Origin: Candidatus Koribacter versatilis Ellin345
GTDB taxonomy: Bacteria > Acidobacteriota > Terriglobia > Terriglobales > Acidobacteriaceae
Direction of reading: 5' to 3'
Length of the DNA: 64,000 nucleotides
NCBI RefSeq assembly: GCF_000014005.1
Contig: NC_008009.1
Coordinates: forward strand, 682,001-746,000
In this document: positions 44,933-55,733 of the stretch, in pieces
How the letters are laid out: every line of letters begins with the position of its first letter
Numbering within the stretch: the stretch's first letter is position 1
The notes under the pieces: generated by a model
What the model saw: only the letters and a program-made list of their open reading frames with translations
The model's database searches: none
Told to the model about the DNA's origin: nothing
Made by a program: the position numbers and the translations under genes

Positions 44933-46762
44933 ATGGCAACAACAGAAGTGACTGCGCCGTCGCTCGAGGCGCAGCGAACGCCCGTCGTAAACGACTTCAG
45001 CATTCAGGTCGCGACGGTCAACGGTTCAGGATCGCAATCGGCAAACACTGTTCTCCTCCGCACCATCTTCCAGATGGGCGTGCCCGTGTCGGGCAAAAAC
45101 CTCTTCCCGTCGAACATCGCCGGCCTGCCGACCTGGTACACCATTCGCGCCAGCAAAGACGGATTCGTCGCGCGCAAGAAGGAAATTGATTTCGTCGTCG
45201 CGATGAACCCTGAGACGGCGAAGGAAGACGTCCTCGCCCTGGAGCCTGGCGCCGCCGTTCTCTATGACGAGCCGCTGAACCTGAAAGACCTGCGCAGCGA
45301 TGTGACCTTCTACGCCGTCGCCTTCGACAAGATCGTCGCCGAGGTCTGCAAGGAAGCCAAACTCCGCAAGCTCGTCAAGAACATGATCTATGTCGGCGTG
45401 ATGGCGAAGCTGCTCGCACTCGACATGAAGGAAGTCGAGAAGGCAATCCGCAGGCAGTTCGCGACCAAGGTCAAGGCCGCCGATCTCAACTGGAACGCCG
45501 CGCAGGCCGGCCACGATTACGCCGTGCAAAATCTGCCGAAGCAGGACCCGTTCAAGATCGAGAGGATGAACAAGACCGAGGGACAGATCATCATTGACGG
45601 CAACGCCGCCGCCGCGCTTGGTGCGATGTTCGCGGGCGTGAGCGTCGTGACCTGGTATCCGATCACGCCGTCGTCGTCGCTGGTTGAGAACCTGATTGAA
45701 TACATGAAAGAGCACCGTCTCGATGCCGACGGCAAAGCGACCTTCGCCATCGTGCAAGCGGAAGATGAACTCGCCGCAGTCGGCATGGTGCTCGGCGGCG
45801 GATGGATGGGCGCCCGCGCCATGACCGCGACCGCCGGCCCCGGCATCAGCCTGATGGGTGAATTCACCGGCCTCGGATATTACGTCGAAGTGCCCGCCGT
45901 GATCTGGGACGTGCAGCGCGTCGGGCCTTCCACCGGCCTCCCGACCCGCACCGCACAAGGCGACATCATGAAGGTCGCGAATCTCTCGCATGGCGATGCT
46001 CGTCATCCGATGCTGTTCCCACACTCGGTGGCCGAGTGCTTCGAGTTCGCTGGGGCCGCATTCGATCTCGCGGAAACCTTGCAGACGCCGGTATTCGTAA
46101 TGAGCGATCTCGATCTCGGCATGAACAACTGGATGAGCGAGCCGTTCGCGTATCCCACCCAGCCGTTGAAACGCGGCAAGGTCCTGTCTGCCGAACAACT
46201 GACCCAGCTCGGCGGCTTCGCACGCTACAAAGACGTAGACGGCGACGGCATTCCCTATCGCACCGTGCCCGGCACGAAGCATCCGCAAGCTGCATGGTTC
46301 GCGCGTGGTAGCGGTCACAACGAGAAGTCGCAGTACACCGAACGTCCCGACGATTACGTCAACAACATGGACCGTCTGGCGCGTAAGTTCGCTACCGCGC
46401 GCAAGCTCGTACCGCAAGCCGACATCGTGCAGGATGGCGGCAAGGTCGGAATCATCGCCTACGGCACTTCTCATCACGCGATCGTCGAATCGCTCTCGCA
46501 GTTGCTGAAAGAGTACGGCGTCGGCCTTGACTACCTGCGGCTGAAGGGCTTCCCCTTCGGCGAGGAAGTGCACGACTACATCGCGCGCCATGATCGCGTG
46601 TACGTGGTTGACCAGAACCGCGATCACCAGATGTTCGACTTGCTCAAACTCGATATCAAACCGGAGCACGTAACCAAGCTCCGCAGCGTGCGCCACTATA
46701 ACGGGCTCCCCATTGATGCTCGGTCCGTCACTGACGCGATCCTGGCGCAGGAGGTGAAGTAA
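44933..46762 (+). CDS. korA: 2-oxoacid:ferredoxin oxidoreductase, fused gamma-alpha subunit
   Basis: A 609-aa subunit, probably of 2-oxoglutarate:ferredoxin oxidoreductase. The N-terminal gamma domain (about 20-195; VATVNGSGSQSANTVLLRTI) is fused to the alpha (pyrimidine-binding) domain (about 215-600; TWYPITPSSSLVENLIEYM, GPGISLMGEFTGLGYYVEVP). It feeds low-potential electrons to ferredoxin while converting 2-oxoglutarate to succinyl-CoA or the reverse. A TATAAT at 44887-44892 is the likely -10. The stop overlaps the korB start by one base. Confidence 0.93.
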   Translation: MATTEVTAPSLEAQRTPVVNDFSIQVATVNGSGSQSANTVLLRTIFQMGVPVSGKNLFPSNIAGLPTWYTIRASKDGFVARKKEIDFVVAMNPETAKEDVLALEPGAAVLYDEPLNLKDLRSDVTFYAVAFDKIVAEVCKEAKLRKLVKNMIYVGVMAKLLALDMKEVEKAIRRQFATKVKAADLNWNAAQAGHDYAVQNLPKQDPFKIERMNKTEGQIIIDGNAAAALGAMFAGVSVVTWYPITPSSSLVENLIEYMKEHRLDADGKATFAIVQAEDELAAVGMVLGGGWMGARAMTATAGPGISLMGEFTGLGYYVEVPAVIWDVQRVGPSTGLPTRTAQGDIMKVANLSHGDARHPMLFPHSVAECFEFAGAAFDLAETLQTPVFVMSDLDLGMNNWMSEPFAYPTQPLKRGKVLSAEQLTQLGGFARYKDVDGDGIPYRTVPGTKHPQAAWFARGSGHNEKSQYTERPDDYVNNMDRLARKFATARKLVPQADIVQDGGKVGIIAYGTSHHAIVESLSQLLKEYGVGLDYLRLKGFPFGEEVHDYIARHDRVYVVDQNRDHQMFDLLKLDIKPEHVTKLRSVRHYNGLPIDARSVTDAILAQEVK

Positions 46763-47802
46763 TGGCGACAACTTCCGCGCCACAACCCAAGACCAACCAC
46801 ATCGGCCTCACCGTACTCGACTATCGCGGCGGCAAAACCACGCTCTGCGCCGGTTGCGGCCACAACGCGATCAGCGAGCGCATCATTGACGCGATGTACG
46901 AAATGGGCGTTCAGCCCGAGGAAATCATCAAGATGAGCGGCATCGGCTGCTCCTCGAAGACGCCCGCGTACTTCATGTCGCGCTCGTTCAGCTTCAATTC
47001 CGTGCACGGGCGCATGCCCGCCGTTACCACCGGCGCGGTGCTGGCGAACCAGAAGATGATGGCGATCGGCATCTCCGGTGATGGCGACACCGCTTCCATC
47101 GGTATGGGCCAGTTCGTGCACCTCATGCGCCGCAACATCCCAATGATCTACATCATTGAGGACAACGGCGTGTACGGCCTCACCAAGGGTCAGTTCTCGG
47201 CAACCGCCGATATCGGCTCGAAGCTGAAGACCGGCGTCATCAACGATCTCCCGCCGATCGACACCTGCGCGCTGGCCATCATGATGGGCGCGACCTTCGT
47301 CGGCCGCTCCTTCAGCGGCGACAAGAAGCAGCTCCACACCATGCTCAAAGCCGCGATCGCCCACAAAGGCACCGCGATGCTCGACGTCATCTCGCCTTGC
47401 GTGACCTTCAACGATCACGAAGGCTCGACCAAGTCCTACAAGTTCATGAAGGACCACGAAGAGCCGCTGCACGACCTCAACTTCGTGCCGTACTTCGAAG
47501 AAATCAATGTGGATTACGACGAGGGCACCACGACCGCAGTGCAGATGCACGATGGCTCGAAGCTACTGCTCAAGAAGCTCGAGCACGACTACGATCCGAA
47601 GGACAAGATCAACGCCGTACATCGCATCATGGAGTCGCACAAAACCGGCGAGATGCTCACCGGCGTCTTCTACGTGAACCCCGACGCGCCAAGCTTCCTC
47701 GATCTCCTGAACATGACCGACACGCCGTTGGCGCAATTGCCGGAGTCCACGCTACGCCCGTCGAAGGCGACGCTCGAGGCGATCATGGAAGAGTATCGCT
47801 AA
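46762..47802 (+). CDS. korB: 2-oxoacid:ferredoxin oxidoreductase, beta subunit
   Basis: A 346-aa thiamine-diphosphate subunit. CAGCGHNAISERIID carries two Cys of the Fe-S site, and ISGDGDTASIGMGQF is the TPP/Mg motif; a conserved Cys lies in MSGIGCSSKT. No separate ferredoxin-like delta subunit is present, which is normal for the two-subunit bacterial Kor type. It is closed by a strong terminator. Confidence 0.94.
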   Translation: MATTSAPQPKTNHIGLTVLDYRGGKTTLCAGCGHNAISERIIDAMYEMGVQPEEIIKMSGIGCSSKTPAYFMSRSFSFNSVHGRMPAVTTGAVLANQKMMAIGISGDGDTASIGMGQFVHLMRRNIPMIYIIEDNGVYGLTKGQFSATADIGSKLKTGVINDLPPIDTCALAIMMGATFVGRSFSGDKKQLHTMLKAAIAHKGTAMLDVISPCVTFNDHEGSTKSYKFMKDHEEPLHDLNFVPYFEEINVDYDEGTTTAVQMHDGSKLLLKKLEHDYDPKDKINAVHRIMESHKTGEMLTGVFYVNPDAPSFLDLLNMTDTPLAQLPESTLRPSKATLEAIMEEYR

Positions 47803-48189: not shown

Positions 48190-48288
48190 CCGCGGAATGT
48201 TGCGTCACGTCTGTTGTGTTAGGAGTACAATTCTCGCCCACGAAGAACCGTGGCAGCAGCGGTTTCAGTTTTTCCGCTGAGGGTAGGT

Positions 48289-49335
48289 ATGAACGTCCAT
48301 ATCAGTTACAAGGGTCTGGAAAAGACCCCCGACGTCGAATCCACCGTCAAACTACACCTGAAAAAACTGGAGCGCCGACTGCAGGTATTCCGGCCCGAGC
48401 TGGTCAGCCTGCATGGCAGTGTCCTGCAAAAGTCGCCACGAGCGGGGTTTGTGGTCGCCTTGAACCTCAAGCTCCCGACGACCGACATTGCGGCGGAACA
48501 GGCGAACCCAAATTCAGCAGTCGCGGTGAAGGCCGCGTTCGATTCCCTCATCGGCCAGATCTCGCGCCACAAAGGTGCGCTGCGCAACGAGCACGCCTGG
48601 CCGCGACGACAACAGGAACATGGTCGCAATGCGATCAGCGAAGTTCCCTTTGAAGACACGGTCGCAGCGATCAAGCCAGAGAGCGTGACCAACGAAGATG
48701 TGAGCAGCTACATCAACGCCAACCTGCCTCGACTGCGCCGGTTCGTGCAGCGCGAACTGCGGCATCGCGAACAAGATGAGAAGATCGCGCGCGGCTCGAT
48801 CTCGGTTGACGAAGTGATTGACGAAGCCATCGGCAACGCGTTGAGTGAGGCCTTTGAGCGGCCCGAGAAGATGCGCCTCGAGCCATGGCTCTATCGGCTG
48901 TCCACCGATGCGATCGATCGGCTCGCAGCCGGCGATTCCGGGGGCGGAAATATTCCACTGGACCGGCCCGACCGTTCGCGCGATGGCGAAGGCAGCGACG
49001 AAAACGTGCTCCAGTTCCACCAACCCGACGAAGATCTGTCGGCAATGAGCCTGACGTTCGACAAGAACATTTCCACGCCCGAAGACCTCGCGGCGAAGGA
49101 CGAGATGATTTCGCTCGTCGAACGCACGTTGCGCGATGCTGGGAGGAACGAACGCGAGGCTTTCATTCTTTTCACCATCGAGGGCTTCACCGTCGAAGAG
49201 ATTGCAGACATCACCCAGAAACCGGAAGAGGAGGTAAGAAAGAGCGTGCATTCCGCCCGTGAGTACTTGAAAGAGTTTTTGCCCGTGCGGGATCCGCTGA
49301 GTGACCGTTTGATCGAACACTCCAAAACGGCCTAA
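48289..49335 (+). CDS. HPF/RaiA - sigma-70-like fusion protein
   Basis: A 348-aa protein of two parts. Residues 1-105 read as a ribosome-hibernation (S30AE/HPF, RaiA) domain: MNVHISYKGLEKTPDVESTV, VKLHLKKLERRLQVF, and the closing AAFDSLIGQISRHKGALRNE. Such domains sit in the 30S mRNA channel and inactivate ribosomes. Residues about 134-213 resemble sigma region 2 (NLPRLRRFVQREL, then MRLEPWLYRLSTDAIDRLA), and 270-332 resemble region 4 (DAGRNEREAFILFTIEGFTV then EEIADITQKPEEEVRKSVHS). A Ser/Asp-rich linker (214-260) joins them. The start at ATG 48289 has GAGGGTAGG close upstream; a GTG at 48250 is also in frame. No anti-sigma gene is adjacent. Whether the sigma half binds RNA polymerase is unknown. 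Confidence 0.8.
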   Translation: MNVHISYKGLEKTPDVESTVKLHLKKLERRLQVFRPELVSLHGSVLQKSPRAGFVVALNLKLPTTDIAAEQANPNSAVAVKAAFDSLIGQISRHKGALRNEHAWPRRQQEHGRNAISEVPFEDTVAAIKPESVTNEDVSSYINANLPRLRRFVQRELRHREQDEKIARGSISVDEVIDEAIGNALSEAFERPEKMRLEPWLYRLSTDAIDRLAAGDSGGGNIPLDRPDRSRDGEGSDENVLQFHQPDEDLSAMSLTFDKNISTPEDLAAKDEMISLVERTLRDAGRNEREAFILFTIEGFTVEEIADITQKPEEEVRKSVHSAREYLKEFLPVRDPLSDRLIEHSKTA

Positions 49336-51006: not shown

Positions 51007-52215
51007 GTGAAGTTTTCCCGCCGTGAATTTATCGCGACGTCTGCAATTGGTTCGGCTTCTCTTGCACTTGATCTGAATGCGCAATCCAACAATGCTCCTA
51101 AGGCTGCCGGGCCGGGGAAGAACATCCTGATTTGCTCGGCGAATGGTCACAATTATCTCGATCGCGGACACGCCGTACTGGAGAAGGGCGGCGACACGCT
51201 GGACGCGATCATGGAAGTGGTTCGCGGGCCGGAAGAAGATCCGGAAGACGACAGCGTAGGTTACGGCGGGTTGCCGAACGAAGAAGGCGTGGTCGAACTC
51301 GATTCATGTTGTATGCATGGACCAACGCGGCTCGCCGGATCTGTCGGTGGCGTACACGACATCATGCATGTGGCTCTGCTGGCGAAGACAGTGATGGAGC
51401 ACACCGGGCACGTGATGCTGGTTGGCGAAGGCGCGAAGCGTTTTGCGGTCGCGCACGGCTTCCCAACGATGAACCTGCTCACTGAGCACTCGCGCAAAGT
51501 CTGGCTGCTGTGGAAGGAGACAAATTCCAATCAGGACTGGTGGGGGCCAGGACCGGCGAGCCCGCACTTCAAGTTCCCGACGAATGGAACGAAGTCGGAG
51601 GACCTGAAAGAACGTATCCGTGAGATGGAAAAGCTGGCGGAGCAGATCGGAATCGAGCCGGAGCGGCGGATGGCGGCGATCCATCGCGTTCTGTATCCAC
51701 CGACGGGCACGATCAACTGCTCGGCGCTGAAGGCGAACGGCGAGATGAGCGGCGCCACCACAACCAGCGGACTGGCGTGGAAGATCCCTGGGCGCTGCGG
51801 TGATTCGCCGATCATCGGCGCGGGCTGCTACTGCGACCAGGACGTGGGTTCTGCGGGAGCGACGGGCAGCGGCGAAGAGAACATCAAGATCGCCGGCGCG
51901 CACACGATCGTGGAGAACATGCGCCATGGCATGTCGCCAAAAGAGGCGGGCATGGATGCGCTGAAGCGGATCGTGCGGAACTATAACGGGGACATGGCGC
52001 GCCTGAAGTACGTGAGCATGAAGTTCTACATCCTGCGCAAAGACGGCGAGCATGCCGGCGTTTCGATGTGGAGCGGGACGAAAGAAGCTCCGTCGAAGTT
52101 CGCGATCCACGATGGGACGGCGCGGTTCGAGAATGCGGCGTACCTGTATGAAGGCGAGCCGCAGGAGTGGCCGCCGATGCCGGAGTTGCAGACTTCGACG
52201 TATTCGACGCTTTAG
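51007..52215 (+). CDS. Tat-exported glycosylasparaginase/isoaspartyl peptidase-family hydrolase
   Basis: A 402-aa Ntn-hydrolase. A Tat signal (SRREFIATSAIGSASLAL) directs it to the periplasm. GYGGLPNEEGVVELDSCCM is typical of N4-(beta-N-acetylglucosaminyl)-L-asparaginases. The autoprocessing Thr is probably in PTGTINCSALKANGEMSG, followed by TTTSGLAWKIPGRCGDSPII and GAGCYCDQDVGSAGATGSGE. It should cleave itself into alpha and beta chains. Aspartylglucosamine hydrolysis is the family reaction; the bacterial substrate is not certain. GGGAGGT precedes the start. Confidence 0.9.
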   Translation: MKFSRREFIATSAIGSASLALDLNAQSNNAPKAAGPGKNILICSANGHNYLDRGHAVLEKGGDTLDAIMEVVRGPEEDPEDDSVGYGGLPNEEGVVELDSCCMHGPTRLAGSVGGVHDIMHVALLAKTVMEHTGHVMLVGEGAKRFAVAHGFPTMNLLTEHSRKVWLLWKETNSNQDWWGPGPASPHFKFPTNGTKSEDLKERIREMEKLAEQIGIEPERRMAAIHRVLYPPTGTINCSALKANGEMSGATTTSGLAWKIPGRCGDSPIIGAGCYCDQDVGSAGATGSGEENIKIAGAHTIVENMRHGMSPKEAGMDALKRIVRNYNGDMARLKYVSMKFYILRKDGEHAGVSMWSGTKEAPSKFAIHDGTARFENAAYLYEGEPQEWPPMPELQTSTYSTL

Positions 52216-52325
52216 CTCCGTTCAACTCTCATTTCCTGCCATTCGGCCTCGCGGTTCTTACGCGGGGCCGTTTTCTTTGCGAAGATAGAAGTGTGGGGAC
52301 GATTGTCTTTCAAGTCGGGCATATC

Positions 52326-52976
52326 ATGCGCGGGGCGTTTGAGGCGCATATCGTCCAGTTCACGCTGGTCGCGCTGAGCTCTGTCTTTTTCCTGGTGGAT
52401 CCGTTCGCGATCATCCCGACCTTCCTCGTGATGACGGCGCGGCACGATCCCATTACACGCCGGCGGATGGCGGCACGGGCATGCTGGACCGCATTTATTG
52501 TGCTGACGGCATTTGCGTTTGCGGGCACGGCTATCTTCAAAATCTTTGGCATTACTTTGCCGGCATTTGAGATCGCGGGAGGTCTGATCCTATTGCTGAT
52601 CGGGCTCGACATGATGCAGGCCGAGCGTCCGACGCAAGAGGGTTCGCCTGAAACGGCCGAGGGTTCGGTGAAAGACGACGTCAGCATCACGCCGCTCGGC
52701 ATCCCGATGCTTGCCGGGCCCGGAGCGATCTCTACGGTGATGGTGCTGAACGGCACCGCGCGCGATTGGTCCACGACGATTCCGGTATTTGCGGCAATCG
52801 CGCTGACGTGTTTCGCTTCCTACTGGATTTTGCGTGGCGCGGAACGCGTGAGCCAGAAGATGGGACAGACTGGCATCCGTGTGCTGATGCGAATCATGGG
52901 ACTTCTGTTGATGGCGATCGCCATTCAGTTCATGATTAACGGGCTTACCAATCTAGGTGTAATCCACGCTGATTGA
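52326..52976 (+). CDS. MarC-family (UPF0056) integral membrane protein
   Basis: A 216-aa protein with six hydrophobic helices. LSSVFFLVDPFAIIPTFLVM and ITPLGIPMLAGPGAISTVMV are diagnostic of the MarC family, whose transport role is unproven. A GTG at 52293 is a possible earlier start; the ATG at 52326 gives the normal N-terminus. Confidence 0.9.
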   Translation: MRGAFEAHIVQFTLVALSSVFFLVDPFAIIPTFLVMTARHDPITRRRMAARACWTAFIVLTAFAFAGTAIFKIFGITLPAFEIAGGLILLLIGLDMMQAERPTQEGSPETAEGSVKDDVSITPLGIPMLAGPGAISTVMVLNGTARDWSTTIPVFAAIALTCFASYWILRGAERVSQKMGQTGIRVLMRIMGLLLMAIAIQFMINGLTNLGVIHAD

Positions 52977-53096
52977 GTACTTTCGGTACCTTAGACTCCA
53001 CGCTGACACTTTCATCCACCCTGCAATTTGCTGTAAGTTAACTGGGCAGCTCTCAAGCTCACAACCACGGCCTATTTGTATTTGGGAGACCACGAA

Positions 53097-55733
53097 GTGT
53101 CCAATTCCGCCGCCACTTTGACCACGGGCGATCTGGTCGGCAACTACCGGATTCTCGGCCTGCTCGGTGCAGGTGGCATGGGCGTGGTCTATCGCGCGTT
53201 GGACGTGAAGCTGGAGCGCACCGTTGCGCTCAAATTCCTACCGGAACACCAGACCACCAACCAAGACGACCGCAAGCGAGTGCTGCGCGAAGCGCGCACC
53301 GCGTCGCAACTCGACCATCCGAACATTGGCGTGATTCACGGTTTCGAAGAAACCGACGATGGGCGCGTCTTCATCGTGATGGCGTACTACGAGGGCGAGA
53401 CGCTGGCGCGGAAGATTGCGCATGGACCGCTGCCGGTGCCCGAAGCGGTCGATATCGCGATCCAGATTTGCGATGGGCTGGCGGCGGCACATGCGAGCGC
53501 TATCGTTCACCGCGATGTGAAGCCGTCGAACGTGATCATTACACCGCGTGGCGTGGCGAAGATTGTTGACTTCGGCCTGGCGCGGCTCTCGACTGGCGCG
53601 AGCACGCAGAGCATCAGCAGCGGCGGCACGGTGGGTTACATGTCGCCCGAGCAGGCGATGGGCAAGATGGTGGACCAGCACACCGATGTGTGGTCGCTGG
53701 CGGTGACGCTTGCCGAAATGATTACCGGGCGGAATCCGTTCGTCCGCGATTCGGCGGCGGCGACGGTGATTGGCATTGTGAGCGATCCGCCGCAGCCGAT
53801 GGACGAGATTCCGGTGGACCTGCTGCGCATCATCTATCGCGCGCTGGCGAAAGAGCCGGAGCTGCGTTATCAGAACTGCGGCGAGATGCTGCCGGAACTG
53901 AAGGACTTCCGCCGCGAAGTGGAAGTGGCAGTGACAGCGCCGCCAAGTACGCGGAGATCGACGCTGACGGCGAAAGAACTGCGGCCGCTGCTGGAGCATG
54001 CGTCGCGATCGTCGCTGGGGAATGCGCTTACCGTGCAGCATCGCCGGCAACGCTGGCTTGTGGTACTGGCGATTATCGCGATCGTGATCGCTGGACTTTC
54101 CTTCGTACCGCCGGTGCGCGAAAAAGTGACGCAGAGCTTTACGCATTCGGAAGAGCACATTGCGGTGCTGCCGTTCGACAACATTGGCGGCGATGCGTCA
54201 ACCGACGCCGTGGCGCAGGGCCTGATGGATTCGATGACGAATGCGCTGTCGAACCTCGGGACCGTGCAGAAGTCGCTGTGGGTGATTCCGGCGAGTGTGG
54301 TGCGCGGACAGAAGATCACCGACCCGATGATGGCGAATCGTGAACTCGGCGCTACGCTGGTGGTGAAGGGAAGCATCCAGCGTAAAGATCAGACGGTACA
54401 CCTGTCTGTGAACCTGATTGATGCGAAGAACCTGCGACAGATCGGGTCGGCATCGCTGGAAGACAGTTCCGGAGATTTGGCTGCACTTCAAAATGAAGCC
54501 GTGTCACGGTTGGCGCGGTTGATGAATATCAAAGTCAGCGCCGACTTCCTGAAGACGACGGGCGGCAGCGTTGCGCCGGCGGCGTATGAGTCGTATCTGA
54601 AAGCGCTCGGGTTGATGCAGCGTTATGACAAGCCGGGGAATCTCGACCAGGCAATTACAGCGCTGAAGAGTGCCGTGGAAACCGATCCGCGATTTGCGCT
54701 GGGATATGCGCAATTGGGCGAGGCGTTTCGGTTGAAGTACAACCTCGACGTGAATCCGAAGTGGATTGAGCAAGCGAAGACGTACAGCCAGAAGGCCGTT
54801 GAACTGGATGATCATGTTCCGGCGGTGTACGTGACGTTGGGACGCATTCATGAGGCCGCTGGCGAACATGATCTGGCGGTGCAGGAGTTTCAACGCGCGC
54901 TGGCGCTGGATGCGCGCAGTGCGAACGCACTGAATGGACTTGCGCACAGCCAGGAGAGCGCGGGCCATGTAGCCGAAGCGGAGGCGACGTTTAAGAAGGC
55001 TGCGGCGCTGCGGCCCGATTATTGGGACGTCTACAACGAGATGGGGCTGTTCTACGATCGCCAGAGCAAATACAAAGAGGCGATCGAACAGCTCAAGCGT
55101 GCGGTGCAACTGACGCCCGACAATTCGCAGGTGTACTCCAATCTTGCTGCGGTTTATATCGACAGCGCCGATCCGAAGTTGCGTGGCGATGCCGAGCAGG
55201 CGCTGAAGAAATCGATTGATCTGAGTCCGACGTATTTTGCGTATGCGAACTTGGGCTCGCTGTACTTCGATGAGAAGCGGTATGCAGAAGCCGCGTCGGT
55301 GTTGGAGAAGGCGCTGCAGATCAACGGCGACAATTATCTCGTCTGGATCTGGCTGATGAATTCCTACGATTGGCTGGGTGAGCAAGACAAGTCTGCCGCC
55401 GCCGCGGACAAGGCATTCGGGCTGCTGTCGAAAGAAGCACAAGCGAAGCCGCGCGATGCGTCGGCACAGGTGATCCTCGCGGACCTGAGTGCGAGAAAGA
55501 AGCTGACGGACAAAGCCATGGGCCATCTGCAGACGGCGTTGGCTCTGGCGCCGGACGATCCGGACATTCTCGCTGATGCGGCCAGTGCCTATGAACTTAT
55601 GGGCAATCGCGCGAAGGCATTAGCAGCGGCGCACAAAGCGCTCGACAAAGGATTCTCGCTGGACAAGCTGAAGAACGACCACGTACTGCAGGGCCTGGTT
55701 ACAGATCCAAGTTTTCAAGGTACCGCGAAATAG
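53097..55733 (+). CDS. Membrane Ser/Thr protein kinase with TPR sensor region
   Basis: An 878-aa Hanks-type kinase. The kinase domain (about 15-275) has the G-loop LGAGGMGVVY, the ATP lysine in VALKF (about residue 46), the catalytic HRDVKPSN (Asp about 150), DFG (about 158) and MSPEQ. One membrane helix (WLVVLAIIAIVIAGLSFV, about 320-340) is followed by a TolB/adenylate-cyclase-type N-terminal domain (IAVLPFDNIGGDASTDA) and about ten TPRs to the C-terminus. This topology puts the TPR part in the periplasm. The GTG at 53097 is favoured by GGGAGA eight bases upstream; a TTG at 53076 is in frame. The small gene at 55758 is likely co-transcribed. Confidence 0.93.
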   Translation: MSNSAATLTTGDLVGNYRILGLLGAGGMGVVYRALDVKLERTVALKFLPEHQTTNQDDRKRVLREARTASQLDHPNIGVIHGFEETDDGRVFIVMAYYEGETLARKIAHGPLPVPEAVDIAIQICDGLAAAHASAIVHRDVKPSNVIITPRGVAKIVDFGLARLSTGASTQSISSGGTVGYMSPEQAMGKMVDQHTDVWSLAVTLAEMITGRNPFVRDSAAATVIGIVSDPPQPMDEIPVDLLRIIYRALAKEPELRYQNCGEMLPELKDFRREVEVAVTAPPSTRRSTLTAKELRPLLEHASRSSLGNALTVQHRRQRWLVVLAIIAIVIAGLSFVPPVREKVTQSFTHSEEHIAVLPFDNIGGDASTDAVAQGLMDSMTNALSNLGTVQKSLWVIPASVVRGQKITDPMMANRELGATLVVKGSIQRKDQTVHLSVNLIDAKNLRQIGSASLEDSSGDLAALQNEAVSRLARLMNIKVSADFLKTTGGSVAPAAYESYLKALGLMQRYDKPGNLDQAITALKSAVETDPRFALGYAQLGEAFRLKYNLDVNPKWIEQAKTYSQKAVELDDHVPAVYVTLGRIHEAAGEHDLAVQEFQRALALDARSANALNGLAHSQESAGHVAEAEATFKKAAALRPDYWDVYNEMGLFYDRQSKYKEAIEQLKRAVQLTPDNSQVYSNLAAVYIDSADPKLRGDAEQALKKSIDLSPTYFAYANLGSLYFDEKRYAEAASVLEKALQINGDNYLVWIWLMNSYDWLGEQDKSAAAADKAFGLLSKEAQAKPRDASAQVILADLSARKKLTDKAMGHLQTALALAPDDPDILADAASAYELMGNRAKALAAAHKALDKGFSLDKLKNDHVLQGLVTDPSFQGTAK

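Follow-up and report, generated by a model that had tools for sequence, protein, structure and literature searches.

An S30AE hibernation domain joined to an ECF-type sigma fold in Candidatus Koribacter versatilis and other bacteria

Introduction

Bacteria under stress shelve their ribosomes and re-target their RNA polymerase by separate proteins. On the ribosome side, long HPF possesses a C-terminal domain of its own, which dimerises 70S ribosomes. Fusions of HPF domains to other modules are already known: according to the excerpts of PMC13324472, HibA, an archaeal HPF-CBS fusion, is a hibernation factor in which an HPF domain is linked to a further module. Genes of the Balon/baeRF type have also been found near HPF/RaiA genes, as described in parts of PMC6514570 and PMC10901736, and a figure legend in the latter lists alternative sigma70 factors, Hsp20, HdeD, MarC and RaiA among the neighbours of Balon.

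Here, we describe a protein encoded in a 64,000-nucleotide stretch of the Candidatus Koribacter versatilis Ellin345 genome (NC_008009.1, positions 682,001 to 746,000; hereafter, the window). Its N-terminal half resembles HPF/RaiA (YfiA) in its S30AE profile, which scores above cut-off, in its fold and in several conserved basic positions, but the protein bears a sigma fold in place of the C-terminal domain of long HPF and has a lower net charge in its HPF half. The remainder resembles ECF sigma factors (AlgU, SigW, SigH, SigG1 and EcfG) in the order of the sigma2 and sigma4 helices, with fold matches over approximately 200 columns; it differs from them in a region 2 that is longer between the first two helices, an acidic character, a QPDE linker motif and the loss of most promoter-reading residues. 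The sigma-like domain of the anti-anti-sigma factor PhyR shares with it a region 4 model match and a similar closed arrangement in the predicted structure, whereas the receiver domain has no match in the fusion and the PhyR region 2 model is found in one of 63 family members. Compared with HibA as excerpted in PMC13324472, which is archaeal, carries a CBS module and has no sigma fold, the likeness lies in the two-module plan. With the loci described in parts of PMC10901736 and PMC6514570, the present one shares a Balon gene adjoining an HPF-type gene, the difference being that HPF and the sigma-like part are here one protein.

An earlier note on this DNA, made from the sequence alone, had noted that no described protein was known to join HPF and sigma, and this agrees with the open-licence full texts (figures apart), in the accessible parts of which no description of such a fusion was found. 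The excerpts of PMC10901736 and PMC6514570 do not mention it, although Figure 3F of the latter (HPF gene neighbourhoods) could hold one, and it is not described in the excerpted tLST/TLPQC literature (PMC8290217 and PMC7685784).

Results and discussion

Architecture of the fusion gene

The 348-aa protein is encoded by a single ORF (Table 1) with an ATG start and GAGG at -10 to -7; an in-frame GTG lies upstream at 48250. An assembly or frameshift artefact was ruled out by the recurrence of the long frame at 122/125 matching loci (match starting no later than query residue 20 and spanning more than 250; some loci represent the same genome twice, as do L038 and L050). The fusion is real: an S30AE domain is joined to an ECF-type sigma2/sigma4 fold in one protein.

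Table 1. Features of the fusion locus, in window coordinates
Feature	Position	Strand	Basis or remark
Two subunits, pyruvate/2-oxoacid:ferredoxin oxidoreductase type	44933-47802		Precede the fusion gene
Promoter-like element GAGTACAAT before the fusion gene	48223..48231	+	Similar at 16/19 loci of the window's family
HPF-sigma-fold fusion protein, 348 aa	48289..49335	+	ORF, profiles, AlphaFold2, PDB comparison
S30AE/HPF domain, residues 1-105	48289..48603	+	PF02482 above cut-off; RaiA fold Z 15.6
Variable linker, residues 106-134	48604..48690	+	Low pLDDT; less conserved than most of the protein
Sigma region 2-like helices, residues 135-216	48691..48936	+	TIGR02937 141-331; model helices
Acidic linker, residues 217-262, QPDE family motif 245-248	48937..49074	+	Low-confidence model
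Sigma region 4-like helix-turn-helix, residues 263-331	49075..49281	+	PF08281 above cut-off
Balon-type (baeRF family 10) ribosome hibernation factor, 388 aa	49387..50553	+	PF18854 E=1.5e-15; Foldseek
Asparaginase-2 type protein, MarC membrane protein, Ser/Thr kinase with TPR repeats	51007-55733		Downstream of the fusion
MarC	52167-52976		

The AlphaFold2 model (34 input sequences) has a mean pLDDT of 77.8 and a pTM of 0.46, with block means of 87-96 at residues 1-100, 45-54 in the variable linker up to residue 130, 75-90 at 131-210 and 261-330 and 42-68 at 211-260, between both sigma regions. Modelled helices of the sigma2 type occupy residues 135-162, 173-185 and 197-214, and those of the sigma4 type lie within 264-330, with residues 313-323 (net charge -1) as the recognition helix.

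The Ser/Asp-rich linker proposed in the earlier note proved correct as to composition, with Gly abundant as well (6 S, 7 D and 5 G among the 46 residues of 217-262), but the stretch is not featureless, as it carries the QPDE motif. Over all 63 members of the family (a set with mutual identity below 80 %), the motif is the most conserved part of the protein (mean entropy 2.04), a value biased by the fact that 79 collected loci were themselves found via QPDE. Among the 31 loci found without a motif search, conservation of the linker did not exceed that of the domains (2.05 vs 1.82-2.02), and its standing as the most conserved part was therefore rejected. The intact motif is gone in all five aligned members from a sister family of the same order.

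An HPF half in the only S30AE protein detected in some genomes

Both profile and fold confirmed the N-terminal HPF/RaiA domain. Ribosomal_S30AE (PF02482, Pfam) matches residues 3-98 at 32.2 bits (cut-off 23.7), and residues 1-103 of the model superpose on RaiA chain 8rd8_D (Z 15.6, 1.5 A, 99 residues; Foldseek and VIA-align). A profile built from the 63 members likewise matches HPF/RaiA chains of the PDB from position 1 to about 100, and S30AE is detected at E<=0.01 in 58/63 members.

By sequence, positions 26, 29, 51, 93, 95 and 99 are K/R in 59-92 % of the members, with K/R93 at 92 %. The mean net charge of this half is +5.6, compared with +7.9 in 18 standalone HPFs of relatives (18 used of 21 loci; three without a match at E<1e-5 were excluded), and several basic positions of the standalone proteins, such as 17, 49, 63, 101 and 102, are gone. 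In an HPF-domain tree that is quick and unrooted, with 105 columns and long branches, one branch splits the 63 fusions from the 18 standalone HPFs (SH-aLRT 99.5); with this single-branch split, there was no sign of repeated fusion of standalone HPFs.

The source genome also encodes a standalone HPF (207-aa frame). In the sister family (14 genomes, all returned), a comparison of S30AE and fusion coordinates placed all 14 S30AE matches inside fusion matches, in 13 of the 14 genomes; one genome (G037) accounts for two, each spanning just query residues 1-215. Seven of these 13 genomes are at least 95 % complete, and the same search finds standalone HPFs in other relatives. Across 18 other genomes with a fusion match, the fusion is the sole S30AE protein in seven (three at least 90 % complete) and is accompanied by a separate one in the rest. 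Since every S30AE match of the sister family lies in a fusion, as does the only one in 7/18 other genomes, the HPF half likely does the cell's HPF work wherever no second S30AE protein was detected.

A sigma half that keeps the fold and has probably lost promoter recognition

The C-terminal part had been read as sigma regions 2 and 4, and the fold of both was confirmed, although the Sigma70_r2 profile (Pfam) gave no match in the fusion protein up to E=10. TIGR02937 (ECF superfamily, NCBIfam) spans residues 141-331 (E=5e-10; 39.2 bits, below the cut-off of 42.9), while two Pfam region 4 models score above theirs, namely Sigma70_r4_2 (PF08281; residues 288-325, 27.7 bits vs 25.7) and PhyR_sigma-like (288-324, 27.6 bits vs 27). 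A receiver domain is not among the six Pfam families matched up to E=10. When the 63-member profile was compared with the PDB, the ECF sigma 7qh5 (positions 164-332, E=3e-17) ranked above PhyR (9by5, E=1e-12).

In VIA-align, whose structure list leaves room for other folds that could also match, residues 131-335 superpose on the NepR-bound ECF sigma 5uxx_C (EcfG-NepR; Z 13.0, 3.7 A, 145 residues). The modelled sigma2-sigma4 arrangement also fits PhyR-NepR (2lfw, Z 11.4), CnrH-CnrY (11.2) and SigG1 (10.7), whereas RNA-polymerase-bound SigH (6koo, Z 9.2) aligned only at an rmsd of 27.5 A. The closed packing of sigma2 on sigma4 may be an AlphaFold2 default for any free ECF sigma.

The source genome (5.65 Mb) holds a large sigma-type set, with 46 sigma region 4 (PF08281) matches at E<=0.001. 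From these, 30 loci were taken, and the proteins matching the profile of the fusion sigma half at E<1e-7, excluding the fusion itself, gave 23 control proteins of the sigma-70 family, nearly all ECF (L152 is not of the ECF type by eye). At E<=0.01, Sigma70_r4_2 is detected in 55/63 fusion members, PhyR_sigma-like in 44/63, Sigma70_r2 in 2/63 and the PhyR region 2 model in 1/63; among the 10 controls scanned with these models, Sigma70_r2 is present in 10/10 and PhyR_sigma-like in 1/10.

We then compared positions whose roles we take, from known sigmas, to be -35/-10 promoter recognition and core binding. Two or more basic residues among recognition-helix positions 317, 319 and 322, picked after the alignment had been seen, occur in 7/63 fusions vs 20/23 controls; in the window's protein, R317 is the sole basic one of the three, and K/R stands at 317 in 25/63 members. 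The mean net charge of the recognition helix is -1.19 in the 63 fusions and +1.74 in the 23 controls (p=3e-10, related sequences being treated as independent, as in all sigma-half p-values). The wider regions are also acidic, with a mean net charge of -4.56 for sigma2 (controls, +1.61) and -3.9 for sigma4. Asn at 207 is found in 2/63 fusions vs 13/23 controls, and the region-2.2 Gln (Q178) in 0/63 vs 17/23, Asp taking its place in 58/63 fusions.

From these substitutions, the sigma half has probably lost promoter recognition; a sigma mimic would be expected to look like this, with its fold retained and its DNA-reading features gone. The proposal in the earlier note that the protein could redirect transcription as a sigma factor finds no support on the same points: the promoter-reading residues are mostly gone, the recognition helix is acidic on average and Q178 has become Asp in most members. 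Constraint on the sigma half is nevertheless about equal to that on the HPF half. Identity to the nearest relative is 78 % (HPF), 76 % (sigma2) and 83 % (sigma4), and in four more distant members sigma4 identity is above that of HPF in three and below it in one.

A Balon-type neighbour in the window's family

The gene 51 bases downstream of the fusion encodes a Balon-type protein, whose model (pLDDT 84.3) returned the Msmeg1130 Balon structures 8v9j and 8v9l as its best Foldseek matches (TM 0.73-0.78; E=4e-22 and 3e-21); a further five Balon chains rank within the top 13. Its scores are below cut-off on three NCBIfam hibernation-factor equivalogs (39/480, 35.6/320 and 26.3/330 bits), suggesting at most a divergent member of those families. 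The GGQ release motif is replaced by GGH, and the four zinc-ribbon cysteines are invariant in 19 sequences.

Within the window's family, a Balon gene adjoins the fusion at 17/19 loci (one locus is truncated where its contig ends), and the spacing is 21-54 bases at the 16 loci measured. Thirteen of the 25 genomes of this family carry both genes, two the fusion alone, none Balon alone and ten neither (Fisher p=2e-5, the genomes being related and not independent). Fusion and Balon thus form an operon-like pair in this family.

The pairing does not extend further. The one Balon match outside this family among the 41 genomes of the source organism and its relatives is weak and lies in a genome without the fusion (G040); none was seen beside the fusion in the sister family or at 77 of 80 distant loci, some of which run into the end of a contig. 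A general partnership of Balon with the fusion was rejected, as other genes stand downstream at distant Acidobacteriota and sister-family loci.

At four distant Acidobacteriota loci (L050, L051, L054 and L056), an aspartate aminotransferase gene is located 3' of the fusion, with overlapping frames in two of the four. At two sister-family loci (L028:2519-3982 and L030:2-1453), this position is occupied by a lytic transglycosylase gene, for which MltD was the best-scoring model, though below its cut-off.

Distribution and heat-tolerance islands

The taxonomic survey that the earlier note had proposed extended the fusion to 28/41 genomes (the source genome and its relatives; mostly full length) and to other phyla. 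Across the phylum, at least 21/297 genomes (source genome included) carry it, a lower bound because seven first-look candidates were scored per genome. A motif-guided scan of a species-genome collection found 116 relatives. The 80 retained belong, going by their record titles, to Acidobacteriota, Nitrospirae, Tectomicrobia, alpha-, beta-, gamma- and deltaproteobacteria and a few other groups, and many are metagenome-assembled genomes.

A plasmid collection yielded 29 records with a fusion relative, and in 20 of them the match spans 80 % of the query or more. Seven plasmid regions were inspected, one of which is without gene annotation. Those of Alphaproteobacteria hold subsets of Hsp20, FtsH, a ClpK-like ATPase (1606 bits, below the cut-off of 1900), HdeD, YfdX, thioredoxin and a KefB-like antiporter, and in those of Burkholderiales the relative lies among Hsp20, GroES, GroEL and DnaK. 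Neighbours at the 80 named loci, which include many near-copies and of which about half have none or few of the genes sought, comprise Hsp20 (41), ClpK-like (39), HdeD (38), FtsH (36), GroEL (11), DnaK (9) and Balon (3). Many distant fusion relatives therefore sit in heat-tolerance islands.

One relative, covering 95 % of the query, is located on the Methylorubrum extorquens AM1 megaplasmid (NC_012811.1:867374-868369; L009), where the collection used has no gene annotated.

Possible function of the fusion

We favour, with a probability of roughly 0.55, a ribosome hibernation factor whose sigma-mimic module docks on a partner from transcription, be it RNA polymerase or an anti-sigma, and not a promoter-selecting sigma. 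Stress would lead to joint production of the fusion and, in genomes that have it, Balon. The HPF half would occupy the 30S decoding region (mRNA/tRNA path) as RaiA/HPF do, and Balon, judging from known structures, the A site. The sigma-fold half, its promoter selection lost, would serve as a protein-docking module in the manner of the PhyR sigma-like domain, and its docking onto a protein that binds sigmas (the core of RNA polymerase or an anti-sigma) could tie ribosome silencing to the transcription machinery. The identity of this partner is the least certain step.

This reading draws on the presence of both folds, the fusion as sole detectable HPF in the sister family, the Balon pairing, the basic HPF half and the lost promoter-reading features, together with the frequency of PhyR_sigma-like matches (44/63 vs 1/10 controls), the fits to EcfG-NepR and PhyR-NepR and the stress-gene neighbours. 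Several observations count against it. The family profile ranks ECF sigmas (7qh5) above PhyR (9by5); 7/63 members keep two or three basic recognition-helix positions; the HPF half is less basic than standalone HPFs, with several basic positions lost; and Balon is not beside the fusion in the sister family or at 77/80 distant loci. An anti-sigma gene was not seen among those fusion neighbours that were looked at.

Whether both halves work at once on the same molecule, HPF on the ribosome and the sigma mimic on RNA polymerase core or an anti-sigma, is a separate and more tentative proposition, to which we give rather less than even odds. If they do, silencing ribosomes would also store RNA polymerase or release a stress sigma, and this coupling would be obligatory in at least one family of the phylum, the sister family, in which no HPF other than the fusion was detected.

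A somewhat unlikely explanation is that the sigma fold has been exapted for the ribosome, contacting rRNA, ribosomal proteins or a second ribosome with no link to transcription. The loss of promoter-reading residues fits this, as does the sister family without another HPF, in which the C-terminal part may replace a dimerising domain, and HibA offers a precedent in its HPF domain with a large-subunit-binding module (excerpts of PMC13324472); an acidic sigma half (means of -4.6 for sigma2 and -3.9 for sigma4) would, however, be unusual for rRNA binding, and two separate subdomains are kept in the fold, unlike in a simple dimeriser.

As a special case within the docking-module reading, the sigma half could act as a PhyR-type partner switch that captures an anti-sigma and frees a stress sigma, ribosome binding being the switch. 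We consider this version unlikely. The PhyR_sigma-like model scores just above cut-off in the fusion protein and at E<=0.01 in most members, and the EcfG-NepR and PhyR-NepR complexes are the closest structures to the sigma half, but the PhyR region 2 model is found in a single member, the receiver domain has no match and the fusion occurs in Acidobacteriota and others, whereas NepR is, to our knowledge, confined to Alphaproteobacteria.

A true bifunctional protein, in which HPF is joined to a working alternative sigma that directs a stress regulon, as first read from the sequence, is improbable despite a region 4 score above the curated cut-off, a full ECF fold and the sigma annotation of 11/20 plasmid records listed, since Sigma70_r2 is absent from the fusion protein and found in 2/63 of its family vs 10/10 sigma factors of the source genome, DNA-contact and core-contact residues are lost and the upstream element discussed below revealed no regulon.

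The value of the fusion is that, with a conserved protein containing both folds, paired with Balon in some lineages and carried on heat-tolerance plasmids in others, a direct link between hibernation and transcription can be tested. Annotation is affected too. Among the 20 plasmid records listed, 11 name the fusion relative sigma-70, sigma-28 or FliA, the others giving it as hypothetical or sigma-like or leaving it unannotated, and the fusion protein may account for some of the 'alternative sigma70' neighbours that the literature reports for Balon. The fusion is widespread in bacteria yet overlooked.

A promoter-like element upstream of the fusion

The pattern G[T/A]GTA[A/C/G]AAT, chosen after nine of the 19 loci of the window's family had been seen, occurs 44-74 bases before the start codon at 16/19 of these loci (shuffles: mean 0.04, at most 2/19). 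A search of 25 genomes for a regulon returned nine matches, four of them before the fusion gene, and six for the reversed control pattern; this is a weak test, as the strict pattern used misses most promoters of the family. By eye, TTGCKTC lies upstream of the element at a fixed spacing at several loci of the family, and the copy in the window is spaced differently.
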